Assembly: GCA_017964785.1 (NCBI GenBank)
Contig: JAGCRH010000001.1
Coordinates: 1 to 57,734, forward strand
From: Prevotella sp.
Lineage (GTDB): Bacteria; Bacteroidota; Bacteroidia; Bacteroidales; Bacteroidaceae
Direction of reading: 5' to 3'
Length of the DNA: 57,734 bases
Part shown: positions 31,248 through 49,570 of the stretch, piece by piece
Layout of the letters: every line of letters starts with the position of its first letter
Position numbering within the stretch: the first letter of the stretch is position 1
The notes under the pieces: generated by a model
Databases searched by the model: none
What the model was told of the DNA's origin: nothing
Seen by the model: the letters and a program-made list of their open reading frames with translations, nothing else
Made by a program: the position numbers and the translations under genes

Positions 31248-31276
31248 AATCTCCCGTCTTTTTGCATAAAAATAAC

Positions 31277-31355
31277 ATAACCCACCCTTATTTGGGAATA
31301 ACCCGCCCTTATTCAGAAATAACCCGTCCTTATTGGGCAATAAGGGCGGGTTATT
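31277..31355. repeat. 21-bp tandem repeats ending in a hairpin (probable terminator of the fasciclin/Sus operon)
   Basis: Three tandem 21-bp units begin ATAACCC (starts 31277, 31298 and 31319). An inverted copy of the ATAACCCGCCCTTAT core follows, so that 31318-31334 and 31339-31355 form a 17-bp stem with a 4-base loop and one G-T pair. It lies just after the last susD of the minus-strand operon and so could terminate it. The remaining bases of the 31190-31387 gap hold the argD promoter. Confidence 0.85.
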
Positions 31356-31387
31356 TGAAATGGTCTGAATATATAGTTCAAATACTA

Positions 31388-33199
31388 CTACATACCGATT
31401 TGTCCGTTCCACTGGAGATACCAGTTGCGTTCGTCGGTGAGGTCTTTCTTAATCTCACTGCGTATGATACCGATGTTCTCCTTGCCGCGGCGACTATAAA
31501 TCTGACGGGCCAGGAAATCTCCTGGACTGGGCTGGCGGTAGGCAAAACGCATGATGTCGTAGAAACGGGTGCCTTCGAAGGCCAGTTCCAAGGCGCACTC
31601 GTTGAGCAGCAGACTATCCACAAAGGCAGTCTGGATGGGCTTCTTCTGCTCTTCGGTCAGCAGCGAGTCATCGGGCAACTGATAGTATTCGTTCATCGGT
31701 GTCCAACCAGAGCCATGCGTATGGATGCCAATCGTGTTGTGTCCTTCCTCGGTGCGGCCGGTTGCCAGTTCATCGACGGTGAAGATGCCATACCGCTCCC
31801 TCGGGAAACTGAGGCTGTTAATCCATGTAGAGTCGTTACTTGTTGAACAGTATGGAAGAACAGTATTCTTGATGACATCGTTATTAAGACCTTGTGACAG
31901 CATCTGGAACGCAGCACGTGGGAATCCTGCACCATTAAGAGCCTCGGCCAGTCGCAGATAGAGCATCTGGCGGCGATAGATATGGACGTTCTGAGATGTA
32001 TATTTGTCATTGTATGAGGTCTCAATGCGTTCGCCTGAAAGACGGTCGGTTGTGGTTCCTTCACTATAATACTGATACAATCGCAAGTCGCCTGACATAA
32101 AATCGGGCAGATCCTTAGGTGCATAATAGAAGGTGGTTCCGTTTGATCCTACACAGCAGTGTACCTGACTACTTGACAGGTCGAACATATAGAGCGAAGG
32201 CACAATGCTGGCACGATAGTCATTATCCTGTTGTGAATTGAAGAGGTTGCGCAGTTCGCTGTAATGTCCTTCGGCGGGGATGGAGTCACCGGCAATCATG
32301 GTGATAATCTCTGCATTGGTTCCAGTTCCCTCTGTGAGGTTTCCTCCCTCATTACGTCCAGGTCTGTTCCAGTCTCCAGAACCGGGTGTCCAAGTATAGT
32401 AGGTCATGCCAATGGGATAGGCAGAGTTGGTTCCATTGCGCTCATTGATGTACTTGTAATAGCGCATGGCAGCCTTGCGGTAGGTTTCCTGACTGCCCGT
32501 TTTGCTGGCCAACCACAAGTTCAAGTCTCCGAGTACGATGTTGAGCGGGAAATAGAATAGGCGCGAGGCGTTGCTGCGGATCGTTCCGTATTCTGGATAT
32601 TCGTTGCCCCAGCGTTCTGCCAGAGGTTCGAGATCATTGATGAAGTACTCGCACACAGATTGAAGGTCGCGCCTTTGATAGTCATTTTCTGCATCAGTCT
32701 TAGTGAGAATCGGTTCTGTAATGAACGGGACACTGCCATAATTGAGCACCAGTTGCAGATAGGTCCAGGCGCGGATGGCCTTGACGGCAGCATACTCTCT
32801 CATGAAGACATATTCATTACGGTTGTTCTTCATGGCCGTATCAACGTTTGCGATAAAATAATTGCAGTTGTTGATGATGGCATAGTAATCACGCGGCTGA
32901 TTGTAGCGGTTATCATTTCCGATATTGAAGTTAGCCATGTCGCGCAGGTCGCTGTTGGCTGCATTCGTAATCTCAACGAGGTCGCCGCGTACCTCTCCAA
33001 GAAGGATGGTGCGGTCAGCAATGGACTGCAACTTGTTGAGGATACCAATGACACTATAAATCGTGTCTGTGGGATTATCCAGTTTGTTATTCTCGGTAAA
33101 GACGACATGCTCTGACTGCTGGTCAAAGAAATCGGAGCAAGAGGCTATGCCGCAGATAGCGCAGGTCGCGAAAATGAATTTATATATCTTAGTAATCAT
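31388..33199 (-). CDS. SusD/RagB-family lipoprotein, last gene of the fasciclin locus
   Basis: 603 residues. The lipoprotein signal ends at GIASC (Cys21). The SusD fold is visible as a helical N-terminal half (YAAVKAIRAWTYLQLVLNYGSVPFITEPIL), the LRLAEALNGAGFP helix and the C-terminal hallmark LLNECALELAFEGTRFYDIMRFA. It should bind the ligand imported by the SusC encoded 30 bases upstream. It differs from the PUL 1 SusD and has no carbohydrate-enzyme neighbour, so the ligand may not be a classical glycan. Confidence 0.93.
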   Translation of the reverse strand: MITKIYKFIFATCAICGIASCSDFFDQQSEHVVFTENNKLDNPTDTIYSVIGILNKLQSIADRTILLGEVRGDLVEITNAANSDLRDMANFNIGNDNRYNQPRDYYAIINNCNYFIANVDTAMKNNRNEYVFMREYAAVKAIRAWTYLQLVLNYGSVPFITEPILTKTDAENDYQRRDLQSVCEYFINDLEPLAERWGNEYPEYGTIRSNASRLFYFPLNIVLGDLNLWLASKTGSQETYRKAAMRYYKYINERNGTNSAYPIGMTYYTWTPGSGDWNRPGRNEGGNLTEGTGTNAEIITMIAGDSIPAEGHYSELRNLFNSQQDNDYRASIVPSLYMFDLSSSQVHCCVGSNGTTFYYAPKDLPDFMSGDLRLYQYYSEGTTTDRLSGERIETSYNDKYTSQNVHIYRRQMLYLRLAEALNGAGFPRAAFQMLSQGLNNDVIKNTVLPYCSTSNDSTWINSLSFPRERYGIFTVDELATGRTEEGHNTIGIHTHGSGWTPMNEYYQLPDDSLLTEEQKKPIQTAFVDSLLLNECALELAFEGTRFYDIMRFAYRQPSPGDFLARQIYSRRGKENIGIIRSEIKKDLTDERNWYLQWNGQIGM

Positions 33200-33200
33200 A

Positions 33201-33233
33201 ATTCTTAATTCTTAATTCTTAATTATTAATTAC
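33201..33233 (-). repeat. ATTCTTA-type stutter between susC and susD
   Basis: Four imperfect copies of a 7-bp ATTCTTA/AATTAAGA unit fill the 30-base spacer just before the susD ATG at 33199. Confidence 0.7.
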
Positions 33234-36200
33234 AGTTTAATCTTAATGCCTGCCACGATAGAACGGCTTTGGCTGAGTTGCCCGACATCAATACCCTGAC
33301 CGATGACGCTGGAGGTCATTGTGAATTCAGGATCACTGCCAAGATACTTTGTCAAAGTGAAAACGTTATTGGCCTGAATCCAGAACTGCAGACCCTGTAG
33401 GTACTCGTTCTGGAGCGGCAGGTCATAACTCAGGGTAATGCTCTTCAGACGCAGATAACTGCCGTCCTCAATCCAGCGGTCGCTAAAGCGGGAGTTGCCC
33501 ATCGGATCCTGGAACGTAATCTGCGGAATGTCAGTCTGCTGACCTTCCACCTGCCAACGGCGGATCAGGGCCGTTGTCTGGTTCATGAAGCGGCAGCCGC
33601 CTTCTAATTGTGAACGCTGATAGTTATAGACATCATTTCCTAACGAGTAGTTGAAACGGAAATCCAGTTTCAAGTGCTTATAAGTAACGGCTGTGAAGAT
33701 ATTACCGTAAATGTCGGGATTCGGATCGCCGATGAACGTACGGTCTGCCTCAGTAATCTGGTGGTCACCATCGAGGTCGGCAAAGTGGATATCACCTGCC
33801 TTGAAATAAGTGCGGTCGATACCATTGTCCCCGAGGATATAGAGACCGGCGGCCTCTGCCTCAGAAGTCGTGGAGAAGACACCGAGCGACTTGTAGCCAT
33901 AGAAGAGATTGGCAGCCTGACCCACCTGAGTACGGATGGTGGCACCGTAGACCTCGTTGTCAACGAAGTTCTGTCCTTCGGGCAGTTGGGTGATTTCGTT
34001 CTTGTAGTGACCGATACTACCACCTACTTCCCATTGCAGATTCTTGAGGGCGAGCACCTTGAGGGCTGCTGTCACGTCGAAGCCTTGGTTCTTTAGTTTA
34101 CCGTCGTTCGTCCAGTTCTCACTCAGACCGCTGAGGAATCCCAACGACTGGCGGGTGAGCAGGTTGTCTGTGTTGGAACGGAAGTAGTTCGCACTCAAAC
34201 TCAGGCGGTTATTGAAAAGATTCGTCTCTAAGCCGACATTGAAGCGGCGCGTGGTCTCCCACTGGATTTCCGAGTTGCCGATACCGGCGAAACTCAGGCC
34301 TGAGATGGTGTTCAGGAACAATGAGGAACTGAAGAAACTGCGGGCGGCATAGTAGTCGATGTCATCGTTACCGCTCACATCGAAGCCGGCTGTCAGGCGC
34401 AGGTAATTGATGGCCTTAATCTTGGCCATCCAGGATTCATTGCTGATGACCCATGATGCCTGTACACCGGGGAAGATACCCCAGGCAGCGTCGAACATAC
34501 GGAGATTACCGCCGTCGCGTCCGAAGCGTGAGGAGCCTTCAACCGTCACGTTAGCCTGCAGGAAATAGCGGTTCTTATAGTTGTATTCCCCTTGAGCATA
34601 CCAGGCTAAGGAGTTCCAGTTGTCACTGGTACCAAAGTCGTTGGTGTTTGTCAGGCTCGACTTCATGAACGGCTGTTTATCGTTACCTGTGTTGTATCCT
34701 AACAGAGAGGTCATCGAATAGGACTCCCAGTTGATACGTGCACCGCCGAAGAGATGGATGAAATGGGCATTGTAGCGGTTGCTCCAGTCGAGACGGGTGT
34801 CACTCATCACGGAGTTCTGCTTGGAAGCCAGTGAGCGGACCTCGTTCTCGCGGTAAGCACCGATACTGCTGACATAATAATCCGGCGTTCCGCTGACAGG
34901 GATATAGAAGATCTCGTTGGTGTTGACCAGATTATAACTGAAGTGCTCGGAGAGCGTCAGGTTGTGGCTCAGCCTATAGGATGGTGTAACTGTCAGGTTC
35001 AGCATGGAGTTCTCCAAGCGGTTCTTGTTCTCAGCCTCACTGTATTCGTTGATGGCTACAGGGTTACCCAACTGCCAGTTGTAATTCTTGTAGTTGGCTA
35101 ATGCCTCGGAGAGGTATGACTCTTCTTCAATGTCATAGTGCGTCTTCGACAATTCTCCGCGACCGTAACTGTAGGGGCTGAGGAACGGGCTCTTGGCATA
35201 GGCCAGGAATCCGGGAGCCGTCGGGGTCCCCTCGTCGTAGGTGGCGGGAGCACCGTCGTTACGGATGTCACGGGTGATATTACCGAAGGAGGCATCGAAG
35301 CGGATATTGAAGCGCTCGTTGAGTGAGATGTCCGTGTTGAAACGGATGTTCAGGCGATCCATGTCATTGTACCTCAAGGTGCTCTGCTGGTTGACGTAAC
35401 CCACCGAAAGGCTATAGTTGGCTACGGCATCACCACCTTCGACATTAATACCGTAGTTCTGTGTCATGGCGGTATGATACACATAGTCTTTCCAGTCGGT
35501 CTCCTGATGGTACTGCTTGTAATAATAGTAATCTGGATCCTCATTAAGGAACTTGAAGGTACGGTTACGCGTGTTCGTAGTCTTCAGCAGTTCCGAAGCA
35601 TAACTGCGGTACTGTCCTGCATCCATCATGGAGAGATACTTCGGTTGAAGGACGACACCTCCTGAGACGTTGGCCGTGATTCGGGTGGCCATCGACTTGT
35701 TGCGTCTGGTCTGGATGAGGATGACACCATTGGCACCCTTGGCACCATAAAGGGCCGTTCCATTGCGCATGACGGTCACCTTCTCAATGTCTGACGGGTT
35801 AATGGTCGAAAGGATGTCGTTGAAGAAACCCTCGTGAAGCATTGTGCGACCATACTGCTGGTCAATGATGACATCGTCGACCACTACTAATGGTTGGGCG
35901 TTGACATTCAGGGAGTTCAGTCCCTGTACGAACATCACATTTCCAATACCCGGCGTACCGTTACGAGTTACGCTGTAGACTTGGGCACCCAGATGTTTTT
36001 GTACCTCGTCCTTGATATTGACGGAGTTGGTATAGGCAAAATCCTTGGTGCTATAGTCGCCACGCATATTGATCTGCTTGTCGTATTCTGCCGCGAAAGT
36101 CACTGGATAGAGTTTCACCTCGCGCTGCTCCTCCTGATCTTGCAGACCCAGGCGTACGGGATTGAAGTCAGGCATATTGATATAGACTGACGTCGTAAAC

Positions 36201-36478
36201 GTGGGAACGTCTAACTTGTAGAAACCATTTTCCTCGGTGAGCGTACTGTAGCCTTCCACATCGTCGGCACTGACAATCGTACCTGCAATTGGCTGGCCTG
36301 TGGTAGCGCTCAAGACACGTCCGCGGATGGTTCTCGTGGGATACTGCTTATGCTTGGGCTTCAACTTGCGGGCAAGGGTCTCGATGATGTCTTCAGACTC
36401 AGTGTCCTCGTCCTGGGCTGCGATGCTTAAGGGGAAAGCCATCAGCAGTGTAAGTCCTAATATAATGTATTTTTTCAT
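33230..36478 (-). CDS. SusC/RagA-family TonB-dependent transporter, fasciclin locus (second pair)
   Basis: 1082 residues. A signal peptide (about 1-21) is followed by an unusual acidic/basic linker (DEDTESEDIIETLARKLKPK), a carboxypeptidase-regulatory-like pre-domain (TIRGRVLSATTGQPIAGTIV) and a plug with VQGLNSLN, VVVDDVI and VMRNGTALYGAKGANGVILIQTRR. A barrel ends the protein (GIKIKL). The canonical DEVVVVGYG plug start is replaced by a divergent segment. It is the partner of the SusD downstream and lies 32 bases after a fasciclin lipoprotein gene, so lipoprotein and transporter are produced together. Confidence 0.93.
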   Translation of the reverse strand: MKKYIILGLTLLMAFPLSIAAQDEDTESEDIIETLARKLKPKHKQYPTRTIRGRVLSATTGQPIAGTIVSADDVEGYSTLTEENGFYKLDVPTFTTSVYINMPDFNPVRLGLQDQEEQREVKLYPVTFAAEYDKQINMRGDYSTKDFAYTNSVNIKDEVQKHLGAQVYSVTRNGTPGIGNVMFVQGLNSLNVNAQPLVVVDDVIIDQQYGRTMLHEGFFNDILSTINPSDIEKVTVMRNGTALYGAKGANGVILIQTRRNKSMATRITANVSGGVVLQPKYLSMMDAGQYRSYASELLKTTNTRNRTFKFLNEDPDYYYYKQYHQETDWKDYVYHTAMTQNYGINVEGGDAVANYSLSVGYVNQQSTLRYNDMDRLNIRFNTDISLNERFNIRFDASFGNITRDIRNDGAPATYDEGTPTAPGFLAYAKSPFLSPYSYGRGELSKTHYDIEEESYLSEALANYKNYNWQLGNPVAINEYSEAENKNRLENSMLNLTVTPSYRLSHNLTLSEHFSYNLVNTNEIFYIPVSGTPDYYVSSIGAYRENEVRSLASKQNSVMSDTRLDWSNRYNAHFIHLFGGARINWESYSMTSLLGYNTGNDKQPFMKSSLTNTNDFGTSDNWNSLAWYAQGEYNYKNRYFLQANVTVEGSSRFGRDGGNLRMFDAAWGIFPGVQASWVISNESWMAKIKAINYLRLTAGFDVSGNDDIDYYAARSFFSSSLFLNTISGLSFAGIGNSEIQWETTRRFNVGLETNLFNNRLSLSANYFRSNTDNLLTRQSLGFLSGLSENWTNDGKLKNQGFDVTAALKVLALKNLQWEVGGSIGHYKNEITQLPEGQNFVDNEVYGATIRTQVGQAANLFYGYKSLGVFSTTSEAEAAGLYILGDNGIDRTYFKAGDIHFADLDGDHQITEADRTFIGDPNPDIYGNIFTAVTYKHLKLDFRFNYSLGNDVYNYQRSQLEGGCRFMNQTTALIRRWQVEGQQTDIPQITFQDPMGNSRFSDRWIEDGSYLRLKSITLSYDLPLQNEYLQGLQFWIQANNVFTLTKYLGSDPEFTMTSSVIGQGIDVGQLSQSRSIVAGIKIKL

Positions 36479-36510
36479 ATCCTTACAGTTCTTATATTCA
36501 TACTATAACA

Positions 36511-38313
36511 TTATTTTCTCAACCAATAGAAGGTGTCGCCGTCGCCGTGTGGGCTGATTGTAAAGCGTTCTTCATCAACGGTAGCGATACCATGAGGCAC
36601 GAGCATAATACAGTCAATCCTCAGCGTTTTGGTCCATGTGGTTCCTTTTCTGGCTACATTAGTTGCTACGGTCAGCGTTACCTGTGGCTCTGCCTCTACC
36701 AGTCCCCATGAACTGCAAGGGAACTTAAAGTCTTCTGCAAGCAGGATATAGCCGACCTCGTCAGGACTGGTAGTTATCTTGTCTCCAAGAACCTTTTCCT
36801 GCGCCGTCCCATCCTGATTATGGTAACTCAGTGTGCATTTTAGTTGGGTCGGGAGACGCTGGGCCTGGGTGGCATTACTATCATTGGCGAGTGCCGGAGC
36901 AGTGACAAGATAGATGTCATAACCGATGTTGGAAAGTACATCCTCAATATTGAAAGTCACCGAGTGTTGAATTTTACCTTCATTGACGGCTTCTTCAAAC
37001 TCCACAAACGCATCACCCCACACTTTACCATAGAAGGGGTTGTCGTTGAGGACACGACGGGTAATTGGCGTGACGGTTCCCAACTCTTCGTTCGTTTTCG
37101 AATCAGTATATTGGCTCACCTCCTTGAGGCTGCCTCGATCCTCAGCCTCGATGATGATCCACTGGTTGAAGGAGTTTAACTTGTCAATCTTCCAGTTGTC
37201 TGTCTTCATCACCTGTCCATTGGTGCACTGCACATTCTCAGTACCGTTGAAGATTCCTTCAGGTCCGAACGGTTTCTTCGTGTTGGTGGAAGAGATACCG
37301 CCATATTGATAGTAGTGGAGGTTGTTGCTTCCCCACATACGGCGGTTGACGTATGTATATGCTGCATTTGTAGAAACGGCGGAGTCCGTCAGTTGTGCAT
37401 CGGTATTGAGCGTTCTGCTAAAGATCGTTCCTGCCATAATGGCTAAGCGAGGAGAAGTATACATCATGGAATCACGGAACTTCACCTGATTGTCATAATT
37501 GAAATAAGGCTGGTACTCCTCTAGTAACTGTTTCCATACCGCATTCGTCGGTGCAACCATCCAATAGGTACTGTCCTCTTCGTTCAAGTCAGCATCAAGG
37601 ACGTTGAAGAGGTCGTTTCGCTGTACAAATACAGAATCAAGATAATAGGTCTTTCCATCGATGATACCTCCGGGAATGCTTCGTCCCGGGATAAACTCAT
37701 GGTGATATAGGTGATTGTTGTAGAAGAAACTGCTGACGCTGTCAAGGTCGGCATCCTTACGCAGATACTCGAAAATGTTGGTCGCGAACTCTGCTTTCCC
37801 ATCAATCGTGAAGAGAACGCCATTACTATAGAGTTCGTTTTTAGTCAGAATAGGACTGCTTCCAAACGAACTGGTTGACAGTTTGATCCGCTTGCCGTTC
37901 ATCATCATAAGGGAGTCGCTGCTAGCCTCGTAGATGGAGTGGTTATACATGGCGATGTGATTATGTACAAACTCCTTGATGACAGTATTGTCATCTTCGT
38001 TTACCTTGCCCTTCTCTGCGTTATAGGCCGCAATCAGTTCATCGGCTTCCTGGGCAGAGAAATGGTCATTGGTAGGGGCGAAGACGGTGAACACTTGGCT
38101 ACTGGAGAGTGACTTGTCAAAACCGCACTTCTCAATCACCTTGGCAAAGTTACTCAGGTTGCTGTTCTGCGAGATACCCTCCCAAAGCGTATAGTCCTTC
38201 ATGTCTTTGCCCTTACTTTCAAAATGGTCGTTCCATGTGTCGGAACAGGCCGCGAAGGTGAGGATTGCCAATGCAAATCCTATTACCTTATTATATATAT
38301 GTTTAGTGCTCAT
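36511..38313 (-). CDS. Fasciclin (FAS1)-domain lipoprotein, 600 aa
   Basis: A lipoprotein signal ends at FAAC (Cys23). The first FAS1 domain (about 40-235) has FTVFAPTNDHFSAQ at 76-89 and ends near TYYLDSVFV. A second FAS1-like domain begins with YWMVAPTNAVWKQL at 250-263. The C-terminal 250 residues are beta-rich with no named domain. FAS1 domains mediate adhesion or ligand binding; here the anchor implies a surface or periplasmic location next to SusC/SusD. A GTGAAAA stutter fills the spacer before its start. It sits between another fasciclin gene and a susC. Confidence 0.88.
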   Translation of the reverse strand: MSTKHIYNKVIGFALAILTFAACSDTWNDHFESKGKDMKDYTLWEGISQNSNLSNFAKVIEKCGFDKSLSSSQVFTVFAPTNDHFSAQEADELIAAYNAEKGKVNEDDNTVIKEFVHNHIAMYNHSIYEASSDSLMMMNGKRIKLSTSSFGSSPILTKNELYSNGVLFTIDGKAEFATNIFEYLRKDADLDSVSSFFYNNHLYHHEFIPGRSIPGGIIDGKTYYLDSVFVQRNDLFNVLDADLNEEDSTYWMVAPTNAVWKQLLEEYQPYFNYDNQVKFRDSMMYTSPRLAIMAGTIFSRTLNTDAQLTDSAVSTNAAYTYVNRRMWGSNNLHYYQYGGISSTNTKKPFGPEGIFNGTENVQCTNGQVMKTDNWKIDKLNSFNQWIIIEAEDRGSLKEVSQYTDSKTNEELGTVTPITRRVLNDNPFYGKVWGDAFVEFEEAVNEGKIQHSVTFNIEDVLSNIGYDIYLVTAPALANDSNATQAQRLPTQLKCTLSYHNQDGTAQEKVLGDKITTSPDEVGYILLAEDFKFPCSSWGLVEAEPQVTLTVATNVARKGTTWTKTLRIDCIMLVPHGIATVDEERFTISPHGDGDTFYWLRK

Positions 38314-38317
38314 AACT

Positions 38318-38342
38318 TTTCACTTTTCATTTTTCACTTTTT
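38318..38342 (-). repeat. GTGAAAA-type purine stutter before the 600-aa fasciclin gene
   Basis: Coding-strand units GTGAAAAATGAAAAGTGAAAA occupy most of the 28-base spacer between the two fasciclin genes, ending about 4 bases before ATG 38313. Confidence 0.7.
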
Positions 38343-40432
38343 TAGAGGTCGTCCTCCATATCTTCTCCATCGTCTGTGCCATAGACACTCTTCGGTACCA
38401 ACTCCAGGAAGTCGAGTGCGAACTCGTTGTTATTACCTTGCTTACCGTCAGATGCTACCCTGAATCTCATGTAATGGTCTTGGTTACAATCAAGATACGA
38501 CTGACTGACAACTTTACGTATACCGATGTTGTAAATAATATTGTATGCTCTACTGCCCTGTCCACCATTATCACAGTATAAGGAGCGTGGATGGGGATAG
38601 ACACCGAGGTTTTTCAGACTCTTGTAATATTCTGCTTTATCCTCAGCATTTAAACCATCGTAGGTATTGATATTGTCAATAAAGTCATCACCGATGTAAT
38701 AATCATCGTCCAGTTTCTTTGTCATATCCAGAGGAATACCTTGTGGTACGTCGTCAATATAGATTTGGGCAATACCGCGGCTATTCTGTTGTGTGAAGCC
38801 CAAACGTATTTGCCACTCACCATTGAACGGCACGGGTGGCAGACGGAAGGTGAAATCATAGTTGCCTGTGAGGTTGAATTCATCCCACATGTAGATATCA
38901 GCCCAACTAATAGGTCTTCTCCATGTTAAATGACAGTTGGAAAATTTAACCCCATCAAGATAACCTTCAGGGAAATACCAGTTACGTCCGTATTTGTCGT
39001 CAGTACTTGACTGTTGGAAGGGGTCTCCTAAAATACGCAGACCATTCGTGATAAATTCGGGGAAGACGGTGTTGAAGTCCATGCGGATACGCTGATTATG
39101 TATCTGCTCTTGGACGTCCTTGCTGAAGGCTACGATATCTTCAACATAGAAGTAATGTCCGTTGAGTCCATCGTGCTTATAGCCATCATTGTCTATAGGA
39201 TCAATGCGCTGGCCCGGATATTTTGCATCAGGATATTTTGCATCGATACGGCGATTGATATAGCGATCGCCTTTCTTACATCCGGCCAGATATTTATCGA
39301 CAGTAATCTTATCCACCTTGATCATCGTGTGAGGCAGAAGGGTATGATGCCAGTCACAGGGATTAACAAGGCTCTCATCAATACCGATGGCACCAATAAA
39401 GTTGGTTTTGTTGCTGATCTCTTGTGGCGTTAAGTCATCGGTACTGGCAGCAATTTTATTCAGAATATGATACTGGATAAAGCGATGCAGTGGATTGACG
39501 CTGTCCGTGAGGTTCTCAAAACTATGGCCGGGTGCACTCATGTCTTGCGGATAGACCTCGTCATAGATTTCGCAGGCCTTGTCGTAAAGTCCCTTGAGAT
39601 CCTTTATCCCATATTTTGCCTCTAATATAGAGTCTGGCTCAATGAAGAACGTATAGCCAAATTTCTTGGTATCTGGAGCATCATACCTTCTTTTATTCGA
39701 TTCTGCATCGCCAGAGGTCATGTAATATGCTTCATAATCCTTAGGATTATAGTTCTCATCCTCAACCAACATCACATTATTGACAACACCTGTAGCCACT
39801 AAGGCCTTATAGAAGAGGCTGATCTTTGGATTGTCACGCAATATGTCTGCAATGTAACTATTTGATTTTTCAATGACCATGTCAATGGGCTGCATGATAC
39901 CATTCTCTACCGAGTCATCCTTCAAGTTGAAATCGATGTGTGCCAGTCCTTCAAGAACAATGACGGCATTACTATCGTTGTCAAAGCCTGGTTCAGTTCC
40001 CAAATAGCGGTTTAGCATATTCACCGTTGGCAGTTTATGTCCAATCATCTCATACGTTGTGTACATAGAAGAAACCAGATGTGTACGGGCAATTGTATCG
40101 CAGTCAGCATCACTCAACTGTGATACACTGTTGAGTCCACGCCCCCGCAAGTATTTGTCGATAGCATCGTTGGAGGGGGCGAAGCAGGTGTAGTGCCCGT
40201 AGGTGGCAAGGAGGTTCATCAGACCTGCTCTCTCTACTATTTCTGCAAATTCGCTATATTCCGGACGATCCGGACTTGTCAGCCAGTCGCTCATCATCTC
40301 ACCCGTGAAGGTGTAGAAATACTCGCTGTCAGGCTCATCTGAGCAACTGGTCAGTATCAGCGTGTTGAGAGGAGTTAGCATGGCTATGAGCAATCCTCCC
40401 AGAAATCCTTTGAATATATTATTACGTCTCAT
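38342..40432 (-). CDS. Fasciclin (FAS1)-domain lipoprotein with large C-terminal beta region, 696 aa
   Basis: The start is taken at ATG 40432 (MRRNNIFKGFLGG), giving a lipoprotein signal ending ILTSC. A GTG at 40456 overlapping the susD stop would add eight Lys-rich residues from the GTGAAAA stutter. A FAS1 domain (about 45-190 of the mature protein) has YTCFAPSNDAIDKYL and IMQPIDMVIEK. The long C-terminal part (from about 420) is beta-rich with FRLPPVPFNGEWQIRLGF and IAQIYIDDVPQG, like a ligand-binding sandwich. This layout resembles Bacteroidetes FAS1/DUF5108-type proteins, whose function is unknown. Acidic C-terminus DDGEDMEDDL. Confidence 0.85.
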   Translation of the reverse strand: MRRNNIFKGFLGGLLIAMLTPLNTLILTSCSDEPDSEYFYTFTGEMMSDWLTSPDRPEYSEFAEIVERAGLMNLLATYGHYTCFAPSNDAIDKYLRGRGLNSVSQLSDADCDTIARTHLVSSMYTTYEMIGHKLPTVNMLNRYLGTEPGFDNDSNAVIVLEGLAHIDFNLKDDSVENGIMQPIDMVIEKSNSYIADILRDNPKISLFYKALVATGVVNNVMLVEDENYNPKDYEAYYMTSGDAESNKRRYDAPDTKKFGYTFFIEPDSILEAKYGIKDLKGLYDKACEIYDEVYPQDMSAPGHSFENLTDSVNPLHRFIQYHILNKIAASTDDLTPQEISNKTNFIGAIGIDESLVNPCDWHHTLLPHTMIKVDKITVDKYLAGCKKGDRYINRRIDAKYPDAKYPGQRIDPIDNDGYKHDGLNGHYFYVEDIVAFSKDVQEQIHNQRIRMDFNTVFPEFITNGLRILGDPFQQSSTDDKYGRNWYFPEGYLDGVKFSNCHLTWRRPISWADIYMWDEFNLTGNYDFTFRLPPVPFNGEWQIRLGFTQQNSRGIAQIYIDDVPQGIPLDMTKKLDDDYYIGDDFIDNINTYDGLNAEDKAEYYKSLKNLGVYPHPRSLYCDNGGQGSRAYNIIYNIGIRKVVSQSYLDCNQDHYMRFRVASDGKQGNNNEFALDFLELVPKSVYGTDDGEDMEDDL

Positions 40433-40458
40433 ACTTTTCACTTTTTTTCTTTTCACTT
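40433..40458 (-). repeat. GTGAAAA-type purine stutter before the 696-aa fasciclin gene
   Basis: Coding-strand GTGAAAAGAAAAAAAGTGAAAA runs from the susD stop up to ATG 40432, and creates the overlapping GTGA at 40453-40456. Confidence 0.7.
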
Positions 40459-42222
40459 CTTGGTCGTCTTTTGATAACTGTCGTTTTCACCACTGCCAAA
40501 GGCCGGATTCTGTACAAGATTCAGGTTGACTTTCATCTCATCAAGATTATACGGCCAATAGATGGCATCCATTTTGGTCAAGTGGTTGCTGATTAGTCCG
40601 GTGCCAGTCGTGTGTTTTGACAATGCGGCATCTTTCAATTGATTCGTATTGCCATTTCGCTGTGAGAGGCGGACAAGGTCGAACCATCGCTTGCCTTCGA
40701 ACATCAGTTCACGCTGACGTTCCTGAAGGACCAGATTCTCCATGTCAACTTTGGAATTGTATTCGTTCCTACGAAGTGTGTCAGCGAGTTGGTTTTGGCA
40801 GATGGCTCGCTTGTTTACCGCATTGACGAGGGTAAAGGCTCTGTCTAAAATAGACTTGTTATAATCACCGGTTTCCTGGTCACTCCCTTCACGAACCAAC
40901 TGTGTCAAGGCTTCGGCCTTCAAAAGCATGATGTCCGTTAGGCGATAGATAATCCAGTTGGATCCATTTTGGTTCTGTGAATAAAGTGAACCATAGGATA
41001 CTTCCGGAGAGGAACCAGAGACACTGATATCAATAGTACTTGTTGTATATTTGTTGATGGATTTATCGTCCAAATCACAATTGAAATACATACGGGAGTC
41101 ACGTTTTTTGTTGCGGTCAGCAAAAACTTTGCGACCCGAAGTCTTGTCGATATCATTGAAAATGTAGTCAGAGGGAGCAACCAAACCGACAGTCGCGTTG
41201 GAGTTACCATAGAAGGAGTTGACGGCGCCATTGGCCGGCATACCATTATCACTGGGGTTGTCATCGAAGATCAACTGGAAGATAATCTCCTGGTTGACCT
41301 CATCCACATTGCCTCTGTCTCTTCCAAACAAGACAGTATAAGCATCGCCAAAATAACTATTTGATGTTGAGTTGGAAACCAGCGGGAAACCATTGAAACG
41401 CTCCTCTGCATCTTCATTGGAGAAAGAACTGGAACGCTTTTGACGATTCTCCTCTGCAATGGCTTTTTTCGACTCAATGACCATGTCGGCATAGCGGATA
41501 CAGTTCTCATAGTCCTTCTTCCAGAGGTAAAGTTCACAAAGTAAAGCATGGATAACATCTTGTGTGATGCGTCCTGTCTGGTAGAGTTCCTTTGTGGTGG
41601 GGTAGCGTTTGATGGCCTGGTTCTGTACGCCTTCCAAGTCGTAGATCAATGAGTCAAGTACGTCGTTGAATTTTGTAGCGGGCAAATCCATCTTCTGATT
41701 GTCATCGATGTATGCCTCTCTTGAGAAAGGCACATCACGGAAAGCACGGATGAGATAGAAGTAGCAGAGACTGCGGAGTGCTACCATCTCTGCGATGTTG
41801 GCCTGCAACTCACTCTCTGTATAGGCAGGATCGTCGGCGGCCACGCCAGGGGCATATTTTATAACAGTGTTACAACGGTTGATGACGGTGTAAAACCCTC
41901 CCCAGTTGGTGTAGGTGTTTTTGGCATCGATGTTCTCCTTCAAGACTTTCTCGAGGCTTCCGTCAGAAGTGGTGTTGCTGCCCGGACCGATGTTGTCGCT
42001 GCGGAACTCACCCCATACCATCATGCGTTTGATGACTCCTTCCGCCTGCATACCTGAATAACAGCCTGCAATGACGGCATCCACATCGGCCTTCTCATTC
42101 CAGAACTGTTCCAAGATAATCTCATTCTGAGGCTTGATCTCTAAAAAATCTGTGCAGGAAGAGAGACCGCATATTGCGCTGAAGGCGCATATTATATAAT
42201 AATGTATTTTTTTCATATTCAT
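40453..42222 (-). CDS. SusD/RagB-family lipoprotein, fasciclin locus (first pair)
   Basis: 589 residues; a second in-frame ATG lies at 42216. A lipoprotein signal ends at LSSC (Cys22), followed by TDFLEIKPQNEI, the classical SusD opening. The N-terminal helical repeats include VALRSLCYFYLIRAFRDVPF, and the C-terminal signature LQERQRELMFEGKRWFDLVRLS is intact. It is a surface ligand-binding partner of the 1108-aa SusC encoded 6 bases upstream. Confidence 0.94.
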   Translation of the reverse strand: MNMKKIHYYIICAFSAICGLSSCTDFLEIKPQNEIILEQFWNEKADVDAVIAGCYSGMQAEGVIKRMMVWGEFRSDNIGPGSNTTSDGSLEKVLKENIDAKNTYTNWGGFYTVINRCNTVIKYAPGVAADDPAYTESELQANIAEMVALRSLCYFYLIRAFRDVPFSREAYIDDNQKMDLPATKFNDVLDSLIYDLEGVQNQAIKRYPTTKELYQTGRITQDVIHALLCELYLWKKDYENCIRYADMVIESKKAIAEENRQKRSSSFSNEDAEERFNGFPLVSNSTSNSYFGDAYTVLFGRDRGNVDEVNQEIIFQLIFDDNPSDNGMPANGAVNSFYGNSNATVGLVAPSDYIFNDIDKTSGRKVFADRNKKRDSRMYFNCDLDDKSINKYTTSTIDISVSGSSPEVSYGSLYSQNQNGSNWIIYRLTDIMLLKAEALTQLVREGSDQETGDYNKSILDRAFTLVNAVNKRAICQNQLADTLRRNEYNSKVDMENLVLQERQRELMFEGKRWFDLVRLSQRNGNTNQLKDAALSKHTTGTGLISNHLTKMDAIYWPYNLDEMKVNLNLVQNPAFGSGENDSYQKTTKK

Positions 42223-42228
42223 ATCTTT

Positions 42229-45200
42229 TTAGAACTCAACAGTGATACCTAATGTGTATGAACGAGAACGTGGTGTCTGGGCGCTGTCGATGGCGGGAGA
42301 GTAACCGCCGCTCGAAATGTCCGGGTCAACACCAGAGTACTTCGTGAGAACAAACGGGTTGTTGGCACTCAGATACAGGCTGATGCGGTTGACACCAAGT
42401 GCCTGTGCGTATTTTCTACGGATGTTGTAGTTCAATTGTGCATAACCCATACGCAGATAGGAACCGTCTTCCACAAAGCGGTCGCTGATCAGCGTGTTGT
42501 AGTTCGAGTTGCTGCCATACATGGCACGAGGAATCGACGTGATATCACCTTCCTTACGCCAACGGTAGTTCACAGCCTGACTCTGGTTGTCATTACCAGT
42601 CATGGCTTCAGCATGCAGACGGGCCCGGTTGATAATCTTATTACCGAAGCGGTAGGTGAACTGGGTGCTCAGACGCCAGTCGCCGTATGTGAAGGAGAAG
42701 CCGAAACCACCCGTCAACTTAGGCAGTGAAGAACCGAGATAGACGATATCGAGCGCATTGATCTGACCGTCATGGTTGATATCTTCATAGATGGCATCAC
42801 CACCGTTGAAGCGGTAGTTACGGCCCGTGGCGTCGTTGGTGTAGTTGAACATCATACGGACTGGGTCGCCCGTGCGCGGATCAACGATAAGATTCCCCTT
42901 GTCATCTATGGCTACAGGTGCTGTCTTGCCTTCTGCGAGGAACTGGGTGCGCTCTTCAGGTGTCATACGTTTAAAGGTGGAGTAATTGTACTGATAAACA
43001 CCTTTGTAACGGAAACCGTAGATGGCACCTAACGGGTTGTGCAACTGAACACGCTGCAAGGTCTCGTCGTTCGAGAAACCATAGACGGTGTTGTAATTGT
43101 CCAGTGTCAGATCGTCGAGTTCCAGCAACTCATTGCGGTTGTTACCGAAGTTGGCGTTCACATCTACCCAGAACTTCTTGCCGATGGTAATGACGCGGTT
43201 GGAACTGATATGGAACTCCCAACCCGTATTACGCATCTTACCCTGATTCTTATAGGCCACATTCTCGTATCCTGTGTTCGAAGGAATACGGTAGTTGGAC
43301 AACAGCATGTCGGTGGTTGTCTGTGAGTAACCCTCGATGGTCACAGTCAGACGGTCATTGAAGAAGCCTAAGTCGATACCGCCGTTCCAACTCTCGGTGA
43401 TTTGCCATTTCATGTCTGTCAGACGAATGTTGTTCGGCTTCATGGCCTGCATGTCGATATATCTGTCAGTAGAACCATACTTCGAAGTGTAGAGGTAGTC
43501 CTGACCAGGCTGCTGACCCGAACGACCCCAACTGGGACGGATGGCGAACATGGACAGCCATTTCTTTGTCGGCTCCATCCAAGGCTCGTCGCTGATAATC
43601 CACTTCAAGGAGAGTGAGGGGAAGTAACCCCAGCGGCTGTCTGGACCGAACTTCGTGGTACCGTCGGCACGTAGAGAACCGTCGATGATATAACGTCCCT
43701 TGTAGGCGTAGTGGGCAGAAGCCGTGAAGTACATGGAACGATGCTGGCTGAAGTTAGAACTCAGACTGGTGATCAGACCACCACCCTGTGTCGTGGTGAT
43801 ACCTGTGGGAACACCTTTCTTGTCTTCTGACTGGCTGGTAGAAGTACCACTGTTCAGTTCAAAACGTCCCAGCATCATGAAGGAGTGATCCTTATTCTTA
43901 AAGGAAGGAATCAATGTCAGTGTCTGCTTGGTATTGAAGGATACGCTCTTTGAGGAACTGTCAGAGGTTGTGTTGACCCCCTGATCCCAGGAGACGGTCT
44001 TCAACTCCTGCGGATAGTATCTGTTCGAATAGCCGTTGTTGATATTCAGATAGACCTGACCGCGCCAGTTCAACTGCCAGTGGTCGTCGTCCATGCCGAG
44101 CAGTTGGTACTGGATAATCAATTCGGGCTGCATGTCATAGGTGCTCTGCTGGTTCTTGGCCAAGTGCGCACTGGCAACGGGGTTGACATAGGTCTTCTGG
44201 TCGTTATTGAAGACTGAACTACCGCTCTGCAACATTGTATAATAAGAAGAGGTATTCTCACCAGTTACAGGATTCTGCTCGTAGATACTCATATTCGGCA
44301 TCTTCTTCATGGCAATGTCGAGCAGACCGTCAGAGTTACGGTCGTTCTTGGTATAAGTCATGGAGAAGTTGGTGCTGACGCGGATGCGCTCACTGACATT
44401 ATAGTCAAGAGCCACACGGGTGGAGAAACGCTGCAATTTCTGCTCAATCATCGTACCCGTTTCATGGTCGTAACCGGCACCGATACGGAAGAGGGCTTTC
44501 TCACCACCACCGCTCACGGTGACATAGTGGTTCTGGCGGAGACCCCATTGGGTGACGGCATCGCGCCAGTCGGTATTGTTATTATACTGCTCGTATTCCG
44601 AGAATGACGGATCGTAGTTCAGTTCAGGAATATCTGCGGCGGCATCGCTCTGCTCCGGGTTGAAGTACGACTCCTTCAAGAGCATTGTGTAGTCGTCACC
44701 ATTCAGAAGGTTATATCCCTTTGGCTGATAGGTGCCAGTCAGTTTCAATGAATACTGGAGTCTGGGTTTGCCTCGGGCACCACGCTTGGTGGTCAACTCG
44801 ATGACACCGTTACCGCCTTGTGAACCGTAGATGGCCGTGGCTGCTGCGTCTTTCAATACGCGGATATCAGAGATATCCTCTGGGTTGATATTCAACAACT
44901 CGGCAAATTTCTCATTGTTGGCGTTGGCAATGTCAAAGTTTTGAAGGCTGACTTGCCTGACATTACCGTCCACTACAATCAGCGGGTTGGCATCGGTCAG
45001 TGTGGAGAGTGAGGAAGCACCACGTAGACGCATGGTAGAACCGGAACCGAGGTCACCGGAGTTACCGATGATGTCAAGACCGGCGATACGGCCCTGCATA
45101 GCCTCGTCGATGGTGGTGAAGGACAGACCTTCCACTTCCTTCATCGAGAAGTTCTGGGTCGCATTGGCCACCTCTCGTTGCGGGATGGGCAGACCGTTAC

Positions 45201-45555
45201 CCGTGACACGCCTCTTTGACTGGATGGTCACAGGTGCTATCGTAGTGTTATCGGTCATCACAATCTTGAAATTCGTCTTGTTGATGGGCTGTGTGACAGT
45301 CTTCATACCCACATAACTGAAACGGATCTTGTCTTTCGGGTTCCTGACCTTCATCGTGAAGTTACCGTTCAGATCGGTAACGGCCGACTCGATGATACGG
45401 CCATTGCCGTCGATCTCACAGACAGTGGCACCCATCAAGGGTCCCATCTCGTCGCTCACGTTACCGTGAACGGAGGTAATCTCTTGTGCCTGTGCGCTGA
45501 TGGCAGTAACCACCATCAGTGCCAATAACATTATATATTTTTTAAAAGTAATCAT
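42229..45555 (-). CDS. SusC/RagA-family TonB-dependent transporter, fasciclin locus (first pair)
   Basis: 1108 residues. A signal peptide (about 1-23) is followed by a pre-domain (ITSVHGNVSDEMGPLMGATV...GNFTMKVRNPKDKIRFSYVGM), a plug with MRLRGASSLS, LIVVDGNVR and VLKDAAATAIYGSQGGNGVIELTTKRG, and a barrel ending in GITVEF. The plug start lacks the DEVVVVGYG box and instead reads TIAPVTIQSKRRVTGNG. It imports the ligand held by its SusD. Its ATG is one base from the stop of the 907-aa fasciclin gene upstream, so translation of the two is probably coupled. Confidence 0.94.
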   Translation of the reverse strand: MITFKKYIMLLALMVVTAISAQAQEITSVHGNVSDEMGPLMGATVCEIDGNGRIIESAVTDLNGNFTMKVRNPKDKIRFSYVGMKTVTQPINKTNFKIVMTDNTTIAPVTIQSKRRVTGNGLPIPQREVANATQNFSMKEVEGLSFTTIDEAMQGRIAGLDIIGNSGDLGSGSTMRLRGASSLSTLTDANPLIVVDGNVRQVSLQNFDIANANNEKFAELLNINPEDISDIRVLKDAAATAIYGSQGGNGVIELTTKRGARGKPRLQYSLKLTGTYQPKGYNLLNGDDYTMLLKESYFNPEQSDAAADIPELNYDPSFSEYEQYNNNTDWRDAVTQWGLRQNHYVTVSGGGEKALFRIGAGYDHETGTMIEQKLQRFSTRVALDYNVSERIRVSTNFSMTYTKNDRNSDGLLDIAMKKMPNMSIYEQNPVTGENTSSYYTMLQSGSSVFNNDQKTYVNPVASAHLAKNQQSTYDMQPELIIQYQLLGMDDDHWQLNWRGQVYLNINNGYSNRYYPQELKTVSWDQGVNTTSDSSSKSVSFNTKQTLTLIPSFKNKDHSFMMLGRFELNSGTSTSQSEDKKGVPTGITTTQGGGLITSLSSNFSQHRSMYFTASAHYAYKGRYIIDGSLRADGTTKFGPDSRWGYFPSLSLKWIISDEPWMEPTKKWLSMFAIRPSWGRSGQQPGQDYLYTSKYGSTDRYIDMQAMKPNNIRLTDMKWQITESWNGGIDLGFFNDRLTVTIEGYSQTTTDMLLSNYRIPSNTGYENVAYKNQGKMRNTGWEFHISSNRVITIGKKFWVDVNANFGNNRNELLELDDLTLDNYNTVYGFSNDETLQRVQLHNPLGAIYGFRYKGVYQYNYSTFKRMTPEERTQFLAEGKTAPVAIDDKGNLIVDPRTGDPVRMMFNYTNDATGRNYRFNGGDAIYEDINHDGQINALDIVYLGSSLPKLTGGFGFSFTYGDWRLSTQFTYRFGNKIINRARLHAEAMTGNDNQSQAVNYRWRKEGDITSIPRAMYGSNSNYNTLISDRFVEDGSYLRMGYAQLNYNIRRKYAQALGVNRISLYLSANNPFVLTKYSGVDPDISSGGYSPAIDSAQTPRSRSYTLGITVEF

Positions 45556-45556
45556 A

Positions 45557-48280
45557 CTACTTTCTCCTTACTTGATTAAGTTTGCTCTTCCAAGGTGTCA
45601 TCTCTTCGGCGAGAAGTACACCGTCTATCTGATGGACAACAGCATCGGATGCCTGATATGTCGTGGCGGCATTACCTGCGCCACTATACCAATACTCGCG
45701 GCAAATACAATTGTAGAGTCCGTCGGTCTTTACGACTTTGCGAACTTCATAAGGTTGGTTATTCTCCTTTTTCTTCTGATTGACATTGTCCATCACCCAC
45801 ATCTGGCCTCCCTCGTGATTGACGGTGAGAGGATAGAAACGACTCGTTTCCGGGTTACGTCTCATCGTTTCATAGTCGTTTTCGTATCTAGGTATTCTCT
45901 TAACGATCTCACCATCTTTTTCTTCATCATATATCTCAGGAGCCATATTGATGGCAATAGAATGGTCCTGTATGTGGTAGCGGATAAAGTCGACAATGAT
46001 ACTCTTGATGATACTCTGGGCTTCCTTTGCTTCATCTTCACTGCCTTCATAGGTGGAATCGTTATAAGCATCATAGTCATCCCAAGTGGGCAGCAAACCG
46101 TTATCAATCAGTTCCCTGATGGATTCGTTGGTAGGCACATAGACAGTATAGTTATAGTTGTCAAACAAGGACAGGTTCATATTACCTTGATTGCTCAGAC
46201 CGGCTTTTCTGCTCCCAGACTTAGCCTTTAAAAGGTCAGAACCTTCCAAAAGTTTCAGGAATTCTGAAAATTCGGGTTTTTCCTGAAGGGTCATATAGAC
46301 GGATTTCTCTGAAGCCATTGGCACTTGCTCATTTAAGATATAGGCTTTACCATTGGTTTTCGTGTAGATATTCTCATTGTCAACCGGCAATATTTTTTTG
46401 TTGTGATCTGTCTGCCAGCCACCGGCAAATGCCATTCGACCGTCAGGAGACTTGGTGACTCTGAGAAGTGTGCCGCCCTTTGACTTATAAAATTCGTGTC
46501 CGTCCTCTATGTCGCCGACAATGATCAATTGATCCATCAGTCGATACAAACAGTCTACAATGACATTGGTGGCAACATTGTCCTGGATCAGATCACCCAA
46601 AGTGATGTTTCCGTCTTCGTCTATTGTGCATTGGTAGCGCCGTGCCTGAACTTTTTGGTCGTTACCTTTCCTTTCATCGTAATAAAATTCTAGGACGGTT
46701 GGAGATGATACGTTTTCTGTATTATAACTGGCAAAATCGAGATACTGGAGCATGGCATCGTTTGAAGGAAGAATCAGACTGTACCTTGATTGCATGGAAA
46801 GCAAATAGGGTAGGAAGTTTAACCTTGCTGCTGGTGCACTCGAAGTTGCGGATAAAAGTGAGGCTGCTGAGATGGCCCAGTAAATCACATTCATTGCGGA
46901 CGGATGGGACAGGGCAGGATAGGCTACAGAAGCAAACTCTGCCGGGGTGAAAACGCGGTTTGTCATATATACCACGCCATTACAACCCATAAAGCAAGAA
47001 TCAACGTCTGACATCTTAATACCCATCTCTTCCTTGGCATCGTTTAGTATTCTGTCGAATTTCGAAGGGATGGCCTCCGTGAATACAGGCATCATATTGA
47101 CGTTGATGAGTTTAGCCATTGTGGCTTCGGGGATGCTGTCAATAACACCATATTCTTCTTGAAGATCCTTACCTTCATTATTCCACCAGTGCTCCAAAGC
47201 CTCGTTTGTAGGAGCAAACATAGCACCGGCATCGTAGTTCAGAGAATTATCCGTCGTGGCGTTGATATATTGGTTCCATCCTGGATCGAATCTCAGCATG
47301 GCATTTACTGCCTTACCATCCGGTGTGGAGACATTGGTGCCACCAGCAGAAACGTTACTATAGTAGCGAAGCGTATAAACTGAGTCCTGATTGTTGTAGA
47401 GTCGGTTGTATTCCCTGGTGCCGGCTGCATTATAGTATGGCGCACAAAACCGGTCGATTAACTGTGACCAACGGGATGTGCTAGGATGTTGGCGGATAAT
47501 CTCTGCCATGTTGGGGGCCGATTCAAATACACCGTCCACTTTTTGAATATAACCGTTTTTGCAAGTGATGTCACGTTCCACAACTTTCTTGCCGTTTACC
47601 CATGCTTCATTGATGTCGTTGGCCTGATGGTTTGTCAGTACGTCAAGATCTGCATTCGTAATCTTGTTGACTTTCATAAAAATGGGTAGGAAATGAATCA
47701 TCGGAGCGGTTGTGGCATCCTTCAAAATGGGAATGCTCTTACCGTTGTCCTTGAACTTGGCCCATACTGCTGTGTTCGGCATCTGGCTGGGCCGCAGAAT
47801 CTGTACGGAGTCGTAGATGCTGGTTGCCGTTTCACGGCGCATGGTACGACCCTCTTCTGGAGCGTTGTCTTCACCTTGAGGCCTGCCATTTGACATCAAC
47901 TCAATCAAGTAGGCGTTGTTGATCATTGAGTTGTTGAGCAGAAGTTTCTTCTGCGACATGGATAGTTGTTCGTAACGGTTTACACCCCATGGGTTTTTGG
48001 TAAACCATTCTCTGAAGGCTGAGTCATTGGCGACAAACAGGGTTTTTGAGCCTGTGTGGCTGAGAACCTCGCGCTGTCCCAAGTCGTCAATCAACTTTAG
48101 CATCGTGGTGTAATTGCCATCATCCTCCAGACGCTCATAAATGGAGTTTCCCAGCCAATCAGGTTGTCCTGTAAGCACAAAGTCGTCCTTACAACCCTGT
48201 AAAACTGAAGCACCCATCAGCAGTCCGCAGGCGGCAATGAGCCACTGACGCCATTGTTTTGCGATTTGTCTCTGTTCCAT
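45557..48280 (-). CDS. Multi-fasciclin (FAS1) lipoprotein, 907 aa, head of the locus
   Basis: A lipoprotein signal ends at VLQGC (Cys30). FAS1 hallmark strands recur four times: KTLFVANDSAF near residue 79-89, GAMFAPTNEAL near 352-362, YSLILPSNDAML near 500-511 and YTVYVPTNESI near 711-721. So about four FAS1-like domains span nearly the whole mature protein. It is the first gene of the seven-gene unit behind the -7 element at 48349-48356. FAS1 arrays bind other proteins or polysaccharides at surfaces; the ligand here is unknown. At 907 residues it is unusually long for a bacterial FAS1 protein. Confidence 0.88.
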   Translation of the reverse strand: MEQRQIAKQWRQWLIAACGLLMGASVLQGCKDDFVLTGQPDWLGNSIYERLEDDGNYTTMLKLIDDLGQREVLSHTGSKTLFVANDSAFREWFTKNPWGVNRYEQLSMSQKKLLLNNSMINNAYLIELMSNGRPQGEDNAPEEGRTMRRETATSIYDSVQILRPSQMPNTAVWAKFKDNGKSIPILKDATTAPMIHFLPIFMKVNKITNADLDVLTNHQANDINEAWVNGKKVVERDITCKNGYIQKVDGVFESAPNMAEIIRQHPSTSRWSQLIDRFCAPYYNAAGTREYNRLYNNQDSVYTLRYYSNVSAGGTNVSTPDGKAVNAMLRFDPGWNQYINATTDNSLNYDAGAMFAPTNEALEHWWNNEGKDLQEEYGVIDSIPEATMAKLINVNMMPVFTEAIPSKFDRILNDAKEEMGIKMSDVDSCFMGCNGVVYMTNRVFTPAEFASVAYPALSHPSAMNVIYWAISAASLLSATSSAPAARLNFLPYLLSMQSRYSLILPSNDAMLQYLDFASYNTENVSSPTVLEFYYDERKGNDQKVQARRYQCTIDEDGNITLGDLIQDNVATNVIVDCLYRLMDQLIIVGDIEDGHEFYKSKGGTLLRVTKSPDGRMAFAGGWQTDHNKKILPVDNENIYTKTNGKAYILNEQVPMASEKSVYMTLQEKPEFSEFLKLLEGSDLLKAKSGSRKAGLSNQGNMNLSLFDNYNYTVYVPTNESIRELIDNGLLPTWDDYDAYNDSTYEGSEDEAKEAQSIIKSIIVDFIRYHIQDHSIAINMAPEIYDEEKDGEIVKRIPRYENDYETMRRNPETSRFYPLTVNHEGGQMWVMDNVNQKKKENNQPYEVRKVVKTDGLYNCICREYWYSGAGNAATTYQASDAVVHQIDGVLLAEEMTPWKSKLNQVRRK

Positions 48281-48348: not shown

Positions 48349-48356
48349 CAAATTTA
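48349..48356 (-). promoter_or_regulatory. -7 element of the fasciclin/Sus operon promoter
   Basis: On the minus strand TAAATTTG matches TAnnTTTG 68 bases upstream of the 907-aa fasciclin start. No good TTTG lies 19-21 bases further upstream, so the promoter may be weak or need an activator. The rest of the 321-base gap to argC is AT-rich, apart from the terminator at 48490-48528. Confidence 0.5.
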
Positions 48357-49568: not shown

Positions 49569-49570
49569 AA

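Follow-up and report, generated by a model that had tools for sequence, protein, structure and literature searches.

What is an outer-membrane locus for when it encodes two SusC/SusD pairs and three fasciclin-domain (FAS1) lipoproteins and no enzyme that could cut a ligand? The question arises from a stretch of 57,734 nucleotides of Prevotella sp. (GenBank assembly GCA_017964785.1, contig JAGCRH010000001.1, positions 1 to 57,734), called the window below, whose genome comprises 2.88 Mb in 147 contigs with a completeness of ~81%. All on the reverse strand, the seven genes run FASa-SusC1-SusD1-FASb-FASc-SusC2-SusD2, that is, FAS1-SusC-SusD-FAS1-FAS1-SusC-SusD. An earlier note, made from the letters alone, had placed them on this single strand and named their domains, and open reading frames, Pfam and TIGR04056 confirm both (Table 1). 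The genes are separated by 1, 6, 20, 28, 32 and 30 bp, the third gap becoming a 4-bp overlap if the GTG start of FASb is used, and lipobox cysteines can be seen by eye in all five cassette lipoproteins (FASa, FASb, FASc, SusD1 and SusD2). Each SusC-like gene lies beside a SusD-like gene on the same strand, giving two pairs of the kind by which a PUL is recognized, and both SusCs combine a Plug domain with a TIGR04056 score over the cut-off, as SusC/RagA-type transporters do.

Table 1. Genes of the cassette, candidate signals around it and a protein family found upstream of it in relatives (window positions unless a locus is named).
Feature	Position	Strand	Description
FASa	45557..48280	-	907-aa FAS1 lipoprotein; two clear and two weak FAS1 stretches (Pfam, hhalign)
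SusC1	42229..45555	-	1108-aa SusC/RagA-type transporter; Plug, CarboxypepD_reg
SusD1	40453..42222	-	589-aa SusD-like lipoprotein; Pfam SusD families
FASb	38342..40456	-	FAS1 lipoprotein, 704 aa from GTG or 696 aa from ATG at 40432
FASc	36511..38313	-	600-aa FAS1 lipoprotein; Pfam Fasciclin
SusC2	33230..36478	-	1082-aa SusC/RagA-type protein without recognisable Ton box; Plug, CarboxypepD_reg
SusD2	31388..33199	-	603-aa SusD-like lipoprotein; Pfam SusD families
Hairpin then T run, possible terminator	48484..48530	-	After argC, upstream of cassette; -21.8 kcal/mol, z -6.3, 0/200 shuffles as good
TAAATTTG, Bacteroidetes -7-like element (presumed consensus)	48349..48356	-	76 bp before FASa start
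Inverted-repeat region, possible terminator	31270..31365	-	After SusD2; -35.6 kcal/mol, z -3.6, 1/200 shuffles as good
TAACTTTG, -7-like element	31215..31222	-	Just before argD; read by eye
Members of a ~1,200-aa protein family	L111:16454-19900, L113:6920-10500, L055/L115, L056, L125:12283-15882, L127:11976-15506, L068/L092		Upstream of cassette in relatives

That the run holds neither enzyme nor sensor, as the note had also stated, is borne out: Pfam finds no carbohydrate-active enzyme in the cassette or in the adjoining genes of the window, which are argC/argG and argD, and no linked regulator of the HTCS, SusR or ECF/anti-sigma kind was found in the run or next to argC/argD, a scope outside which a 185-aa gene at 28705-29262 falls. 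A scan of the window for RNA families and tRNAs returned none. Within the same genome, which has about ten SusC-like places, a Fasciclin search found two places, FASb and FASc, both here, so that the cassette may be the genome's sole one; the search missed FASa, which is over the cut-off in Pfam. According to one survey, 103 of 121 putative PULs have a CAZy gene within 10 kb, which is thus usual, not universal (PMC8636109). The answer towards which we lean, by a narrow measure for the explanation in full, is that the whole set specifies a single co-inherited outer-membrane machine for the capture and import of large, branched glycans. That they form a single co-inherited machine we consider probable; the ligand and the assembly are the weakest points of the explanation.

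Within the family, relatives of FASb occur in 217 of 301 genomes drawn (E 0.001; matches that are weak or lie away from the cassette are counted too), so that the system may be frequent both in the rumen and beyond it. They also occur at 18 loci of named genomes. The closest belong to uncultured Prevotella (best 90% identity) and come mostly from the rumen or other ruminant stomachs; the host bacterium, too, is probably from the rumen. We inspected 58 loci, namely these 18 and 40 regions chosen among the matches listed from the 301-genome search, all selected through FASb, so that half-cassettes without FASb could not appear. The exact seven-gene order is present in 44, of which 42 were called directly and two by tblastn (L070 and L088, where genes lay under antisense frames). 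Three more are small variants, with FASb twice in L057 and L058 and SusC1 in two frames in L086, and five are cut by contig ends (L044, L045, L049, L051 and L067). The remaining six have FASb without the other six genes (L054, L072, L077, L082, L083 and L084, the last with three FASb copies). Median intergenic gaps in the inspected cassettes are 8-32 bp. The lone FASb of L054 stands among GH29, GH43 and GH31, and that of L083 among GH95, an HTCS gene and, by similarity, a GH43.

The cassette also reaches well beyond the family. Of 393 genomes drawn from the order, 44 gave FASa profile matches, as did 41 of 395 from the phylum (E 0.001; many of the matches short or weak). We fetched 20 regions around the stronger ones and assigned their genes by a profile for each of the seven proteins. 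Fifteen show the exact order, eight from other families of the order (L199-L204, L206 and L207) and seven from other orders of the class (L210-L216); some of the fifteen stretches end within the last gene, and L206 carries one FASb-like gene more. Profile scores keep SusC1 and SusC2 distinct, as in L210 (958 versus 405 and 842 versus 406). The five deviating regions are L205, with FASb before FASa; L208, without FASb; L198, with two FASa and no FASb found; L209, which is cut; and L217, a six-gene relative ordered FAS-SusC-SusD-FAS-SusC-SusD. Around L217 we noted by eye sialic-acid genes (a NanA-like lyase, a Kelch epimerase, a sialidase and an MFS gene). Other classes of the phylum gave weak FASa-profile matches only, so that the demonstrated age covers the class but not the whole phylum. 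Carriage on plasmids was considered and rejected, as 72,556 plasmid records gave no FASa match (E 1e-5).

Together with this age, the fixed order is the strongest of the new facts. Tree distances of the genes are correlated as well: across 48 complete cassettes, the 21 gene pairs give r of 0.867-0.964, each above its 200 permutations (best of all 0.421), values that include the contribution of shared species descent and have no unlinked gene as control. The earlier note had named an absence of co-occurrence in relatives as grounds for dropping its reading. The seven-gene order instead recurs across families and orders, and with the tight gaps and correlated distances it supports the view of the genes as one unit. 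Such a set in one order suggests a fixed machine whose parts divide the work, and not a loosely assembled uptake locus; what the conserved order shows is shared function, not a physical complex.

A competing account, which we take seriously at well under even chances, is that two ordinary SusCD importers with separate ligands travel together, with the FAS1 proteins as accessory binders and no shared assembly. In the main BLAST segments, identity is only about 26-27% between SusC1 and SusC2 and likewise between the two SusDs, and tandem SusCD pairs are known elsewhere, for example in Maribacter PUL 7 (PMC11036162). Yet the fixed order and the correlated distances of the seven genes exceed what loose co-travel explains, and the 58 FASb-selected loci show half-cassettes at contig ends only, apart from the six with FASb alone; L208, which lacks FASb, and the six-gene L217 lie outside that set.

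The unequal Ton boxes of the two barrels are a good lead. In a TonB-dependent SusC transporter, a Ton box is expected between the CarboxypepD_reg domain and the plug. It is an N-terminal SusC region at the periplasmic face, according to a structural study (PMC7618045). By a loose pattern made for this analysis, an EVVV-like core occurs in 34 of 56 SusC1 and 4 of 55 SusC2 orthologues, and the same pattern finds it in neither SusC of the window. The VVVVGYG-type plug start, which the earlier note had found missing from both window SusCs, is indeed missing there, and it is absent from all 56 SusC1 and all 55 SusC2 orthologues; these counts and the profile separation of SusC1 from SusC2 favour the distinct branch that the note suspected. 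Six of eight other SusC-like places in the genome have the motif. Those on contigs C16 and C63:9225 also lack it, with N-termini probably inside the stretch read, so its absence from the cassette SusCs is unusual, not unique, and the contrast is weakened. The best solved-structure match of the window's SusC2 is a dextran SusC chain (8aa4).

In the machine that we propose, the three FAS1 lipoproteins would capture long or branched glycan at the surface, acting as binding or scaffolding subunits that replace the usual glycan-binding proteins and enzymes. SusC1-SusD1 would be a TonB-driven importer of the glycan pieces. SusC2-SusD2, mostly without a recognisable Ton box, might dock, be a gate or be powered differently, and so could assist the first pair or import a second product. 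A shared assembly of both transporters is plausible as a hypothesis. A bolder form, an ancient heteromeric double transporter in which SusC1D1, SusC2D2 and the three FAS1 proteins would sit in one surface complex, with only the first barrel energised by TonB and the second pair a passive partner for docking and handing on, seems to us rather doubtful. The single-machine reading predicts that the two SusCD pairs share an assembly, that one of the barrels has no Ton box and that the FAS1 subunits bind glycan; if true, it would assign a function to bacterial FAS1 proteins whose length is mostly without a Pfam family.

The FAS1 assignment itself is secure in all three, with Pfam Fasciclin scores of 55.8 (FASa), 45.9 (FASb) and 39.8 bits (FASc) against a cut-off of 22. 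By hhalign, the clear FAS1 stretches of FASa lie at profile positions 52-256 and 648-857 with two weak ones between, so this protein may be an array of four FAS1 domains. FASb and FASc have one clear domain apiece, followed by ~500 and ~430 C-terminal residues, respectively, without a Pfam family. An enzyme domain hidden in these C-terminal parts, which the earlier note had held would undo its claim, was found neither by Pfam on homologues nor by PDB profiles of FASb and FASc. At E 0.05, Pfam detected no catalytic domain across FASa, FASb and FASc homologues; it found Fasciclin in 22 of 22, 25 of 25 and 18 of 23 of them, respectively, and other families in one member each (best E 0.0015). The PDB profile searches with FASb and FASc returned FAS1 proteins, all other matches being insignificant, and for the remainder no chain beyond chance; FASa was searched against the PDB as a single sequence. 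The best solved relatives by sequence are periostin and TGFBIp (PDB 5yjh and 5nv6), animal matrix proteins with tandem FAS1 domains, and the remainders of FASb and FASc showed no relative. A C-terminal domain common to these two was considered and dropped, as hhalign gave no alignment (probability 0.6%).

The earlier note had read the locus as an import machine without enzymes. That holds for the window's run; it is not a rule, as cassettes of relatives adjoin ASD1, GH43, GH3 and Glyco_hydro_cc genes and distant ones GH115, GH95, GH105 and L-rhamnose isomerase. On these glycosidase-like genes we reject an enzyme-free importer as the general rule; the enzyme-free state is a trait of this lineage. 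Among 25 cassettes with fetched flanks, 10 have a glycosidase-like gene within 6 kb and 15 have no convincing seed enzyme (an eleventh, in G246, gave a single weak hit, to a Pfam-less family, and is not counted). An ASD1-domain arabinofuranosidase with CBM_4_9 is next upstream of the cassette in G108, and its homologue holds that place in G033. GH43 or GH43 with CBM6 lies near the cassette in G103, G202 and, by similarity, G118; Glyco_hydro_cc in G033 and, by similarity, in G123, G207 and G137; GH3 in G165; a GH31-like gene in G103; and an ASD1 gene ~3 kb off in G233. Outside the family, L-rhamnose isomerase adjoins the cassette in L215 (2hcv, E 2e-133) and GH115 in L213 (5by3, E 4e-199), and by eye a ROK kinase, a sugar isomerase and LacI adjoin L212 and L216.

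Such genes were also counted around the 25 cassettes, among genes of at least 200 aa. Within 6 kb, 23 of 144 genes are hits to enzyme seeds versus 12 of 259 further away (p 0.0002); without seed self-hits the figures are 18 of 139 versus 11 of 258 (p 0.002), and without six near hits that are weak matches to proteins lacking a Pfam match, 12 of 133 versus 11 of 258 (p 0.07). The seeds were taken from cassette neighbours, adjoining stretches cause a number of genes to enter the count twice, and the excess is indicative only. GH95 as a constant partner was tried and rejected, since only 3 of 45 genomes (G938, G629 and G464) have it no more than 10 kb from the cassette, against ~0.7 expected by our own estimate. 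Among the matches listed, GH105 is within 10 kb in 2 of 20 (beside the cassette in G938 and ~7 kb away in G694; ~0.8 expected, again by our own estimate) and GH78 is ~10 kb away in 1 of 20 (G464). The proximity of GH95 and of GH105 is only slightly above these chance estimates.

With glycosidases beside relatives' cassettes, the locus is most simply read as one for taking up glycan whose enzymes, in this lineage, are encoded at other sites: they would be supplied in trans in the window's lineage and in cis in some others. Four ASD1 matches, not all full length, are present on other contigs of the window's own genome. Because enzymes for arabinofuranose, rhamnose, fucose and uronic-acid glycans stand beside the cassette in some lineages, we tentatively name pectic side chains, arabinogalactan or arabinose-decorated hemicellulose as the likeliest ligands. 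One ligand for all cassettes is unsupported, since contexts vary between lineages, and there may be several. A ligand that is not a glycan at all (a peptide, a glycoprotein or a hydrophobic molecule), with FAS1 as protein- or lipid-binding modules, seems to us distinctly unlikely. It would suit the enzyme-free cassette of the window, the astaxanthin-binding fasciclin proteins among the weak PDB profile matches of FASb and FASc, and single peptidase genes (M3 and M19) among the scanned neighbours, and some SusCDs, such as RagAB, move peptides. The neighbour census from which those peptidases come covered 59 of the 72 genes first collected and, with 25 of 103 families listed, has GH43 as the commonest, with four members; this count and the glycosidases, rhamnose isomerase and other sugar genes adjoining relatives' cassettes speak against the idea.

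Other neighbours recur in relatives. An AraC-type gene follows SusD2 in L033, L034 and L048 (L033:19031-20758, the only one scanned); its protein of 567-575 aa has a C-terminal AraC-type HTH in L033 and, by eye, a Kelch-looking N-terminus, and is possibly the cassette's sensor. A secreted protein is encoded upstream, divergent to the cassette, at 11 of 18 loci (L035, L036, L038-L041, L044 and L046-L049), with a CBM_4_9 match in L035 and, by eye, T9SS-like tails in L035 and L048. Sought in the window's own genome, the regulator and the CBM_4_9 protein gave partial matches only, the regulator by its HTH end alone. Among the 25 genomes whose flanks were fetched, seven encode, upstream of the cassette, members of a family of ~1,200-aa proteins (Table 1); the two members with a result have no Pfam match and one has no PDB match.

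The site of the cassette raises a last alternative, that it is a relict inserted into the arginine operon and without a function of its own. It lies between argG-argC and argD-proC, splitting the operon (window 30050-31189 and 48603-50807) by 17 kb between argC and argD, genes that are close together in most congeners checked, and no enzyme stands beside it. An ArgC search of 21 congeners gave a strong match in 12, and in nine of these argD follows argC on the same strand within ~530 bp; in the closest, L218 (argC 92% and argD 95% identical to those of the window), ~40 bp separate them. In the other three, argD is inverted (L220) or absent from the stretch read (L226 and L229). Some congeners with an ArgC match carry the cassette elsewhere, and it is found as a unit at different genomic sites. 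Among close relatives, argG-argC stands before the cassette in five, argD behind it in five, and both in three. Against a relict stand dN/dS values of 0.01-0.15 for all seven genes (window versus five relatives), the intact frames and a conserved promoter-like element, and we find the idea hardly credible. In the same comparison the barrels evolve slowly (dN 0.010-0.033) and the lipoproteins faster (0.049-0.143), which would fit a role of the surface parts in specificity.

With the hairpin after argC and TAAATTTG on one side and the inverted repeat and TAACTTTG before argD on the other, the cassette looks like its own transcription unit set into the arginine operon, judged by these candidate signals. 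In all 16 loci scanned (the window and 15 others), the 300 bp before FASa contain TAnnTTTG, extended to TAnnTTTGCAT in 13, a recurrence part of which may come from chance in AT-rich DNA or from shared descent. The terminator scan lists neither flanking hairpin (8 sites versus a shuffle mean of 14.4), and a sigma-70 scan gave 34 sites versus a shuffle mean of 26.3. A Bacteroidetes-type promoter pattern had no match within the run; the same pattern also misses the promoter-like element before FASa. Just upstream of the -7-like element in L035, L036, L040, L041 and L046 lies an AT-rich palindrome, TATTAT-N3-ATAATA, a possible operator.

Among known systems, the cassette is a variant of SusCD loci rather than a separate kind. 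The Xus xylan system of Prevotella bryantii, distinct from the xenosiderophore Xus, reportedly has tandem SusCD pairs (XusA-D), and thus two SusC/SusD pairs in one operon of a rumen Prevotella, as here. It is set apart by its own xylanase gene, and it is not known to have FAS1 proteins. The utilisomes of the B. thetaiotaomicron levan and dextran PULs are SusC2D2 assemblies with surface lipoproteins (PMC7618045), and they share with the cassette a SusCD system with extra surface lipoproteins from one locus. The window's cassette has two different SusCD pairs, not one, three FAS1 proteins in place of one GH and one SGBP, and no enzyme. A utilisome is defined by a stable equimolar complex of all outer-membrane components, which for the cassette would be a hypothesis. 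Gramella portivictoriae and other Flavobacteriaceae also have a SusD-containing PUL, with GH5, GH9 and GH26, in which a FAS1 domain protein is drawn and is named only in a figure legend; the presence of a FAS1 gene is the likeness (PMC4891872). The context of Maribacter PUL 7 (GH29, GH115, GH105, GH43_18 and GH78 with the tandem SusCD pair) resembles the cassette's; growth on arabinogalactan gave no detection of its tandem pair (PMC11036162). In a mussel symbiont, a FAS1 gene with high transcription is read as adhesion (PMC10199937). No description of the seven-gene order was found among the matches listed in open-licence PMC full text. At 10437-22389 the window holds another, separate locus, a xyloglucan-type PUL, in which SusC0 and SusD0 are joined by a 614-aa protein that has no Pfam match, a protein with an SGBP-B xyloglucan-binding domain and GH5 genes on both strands.
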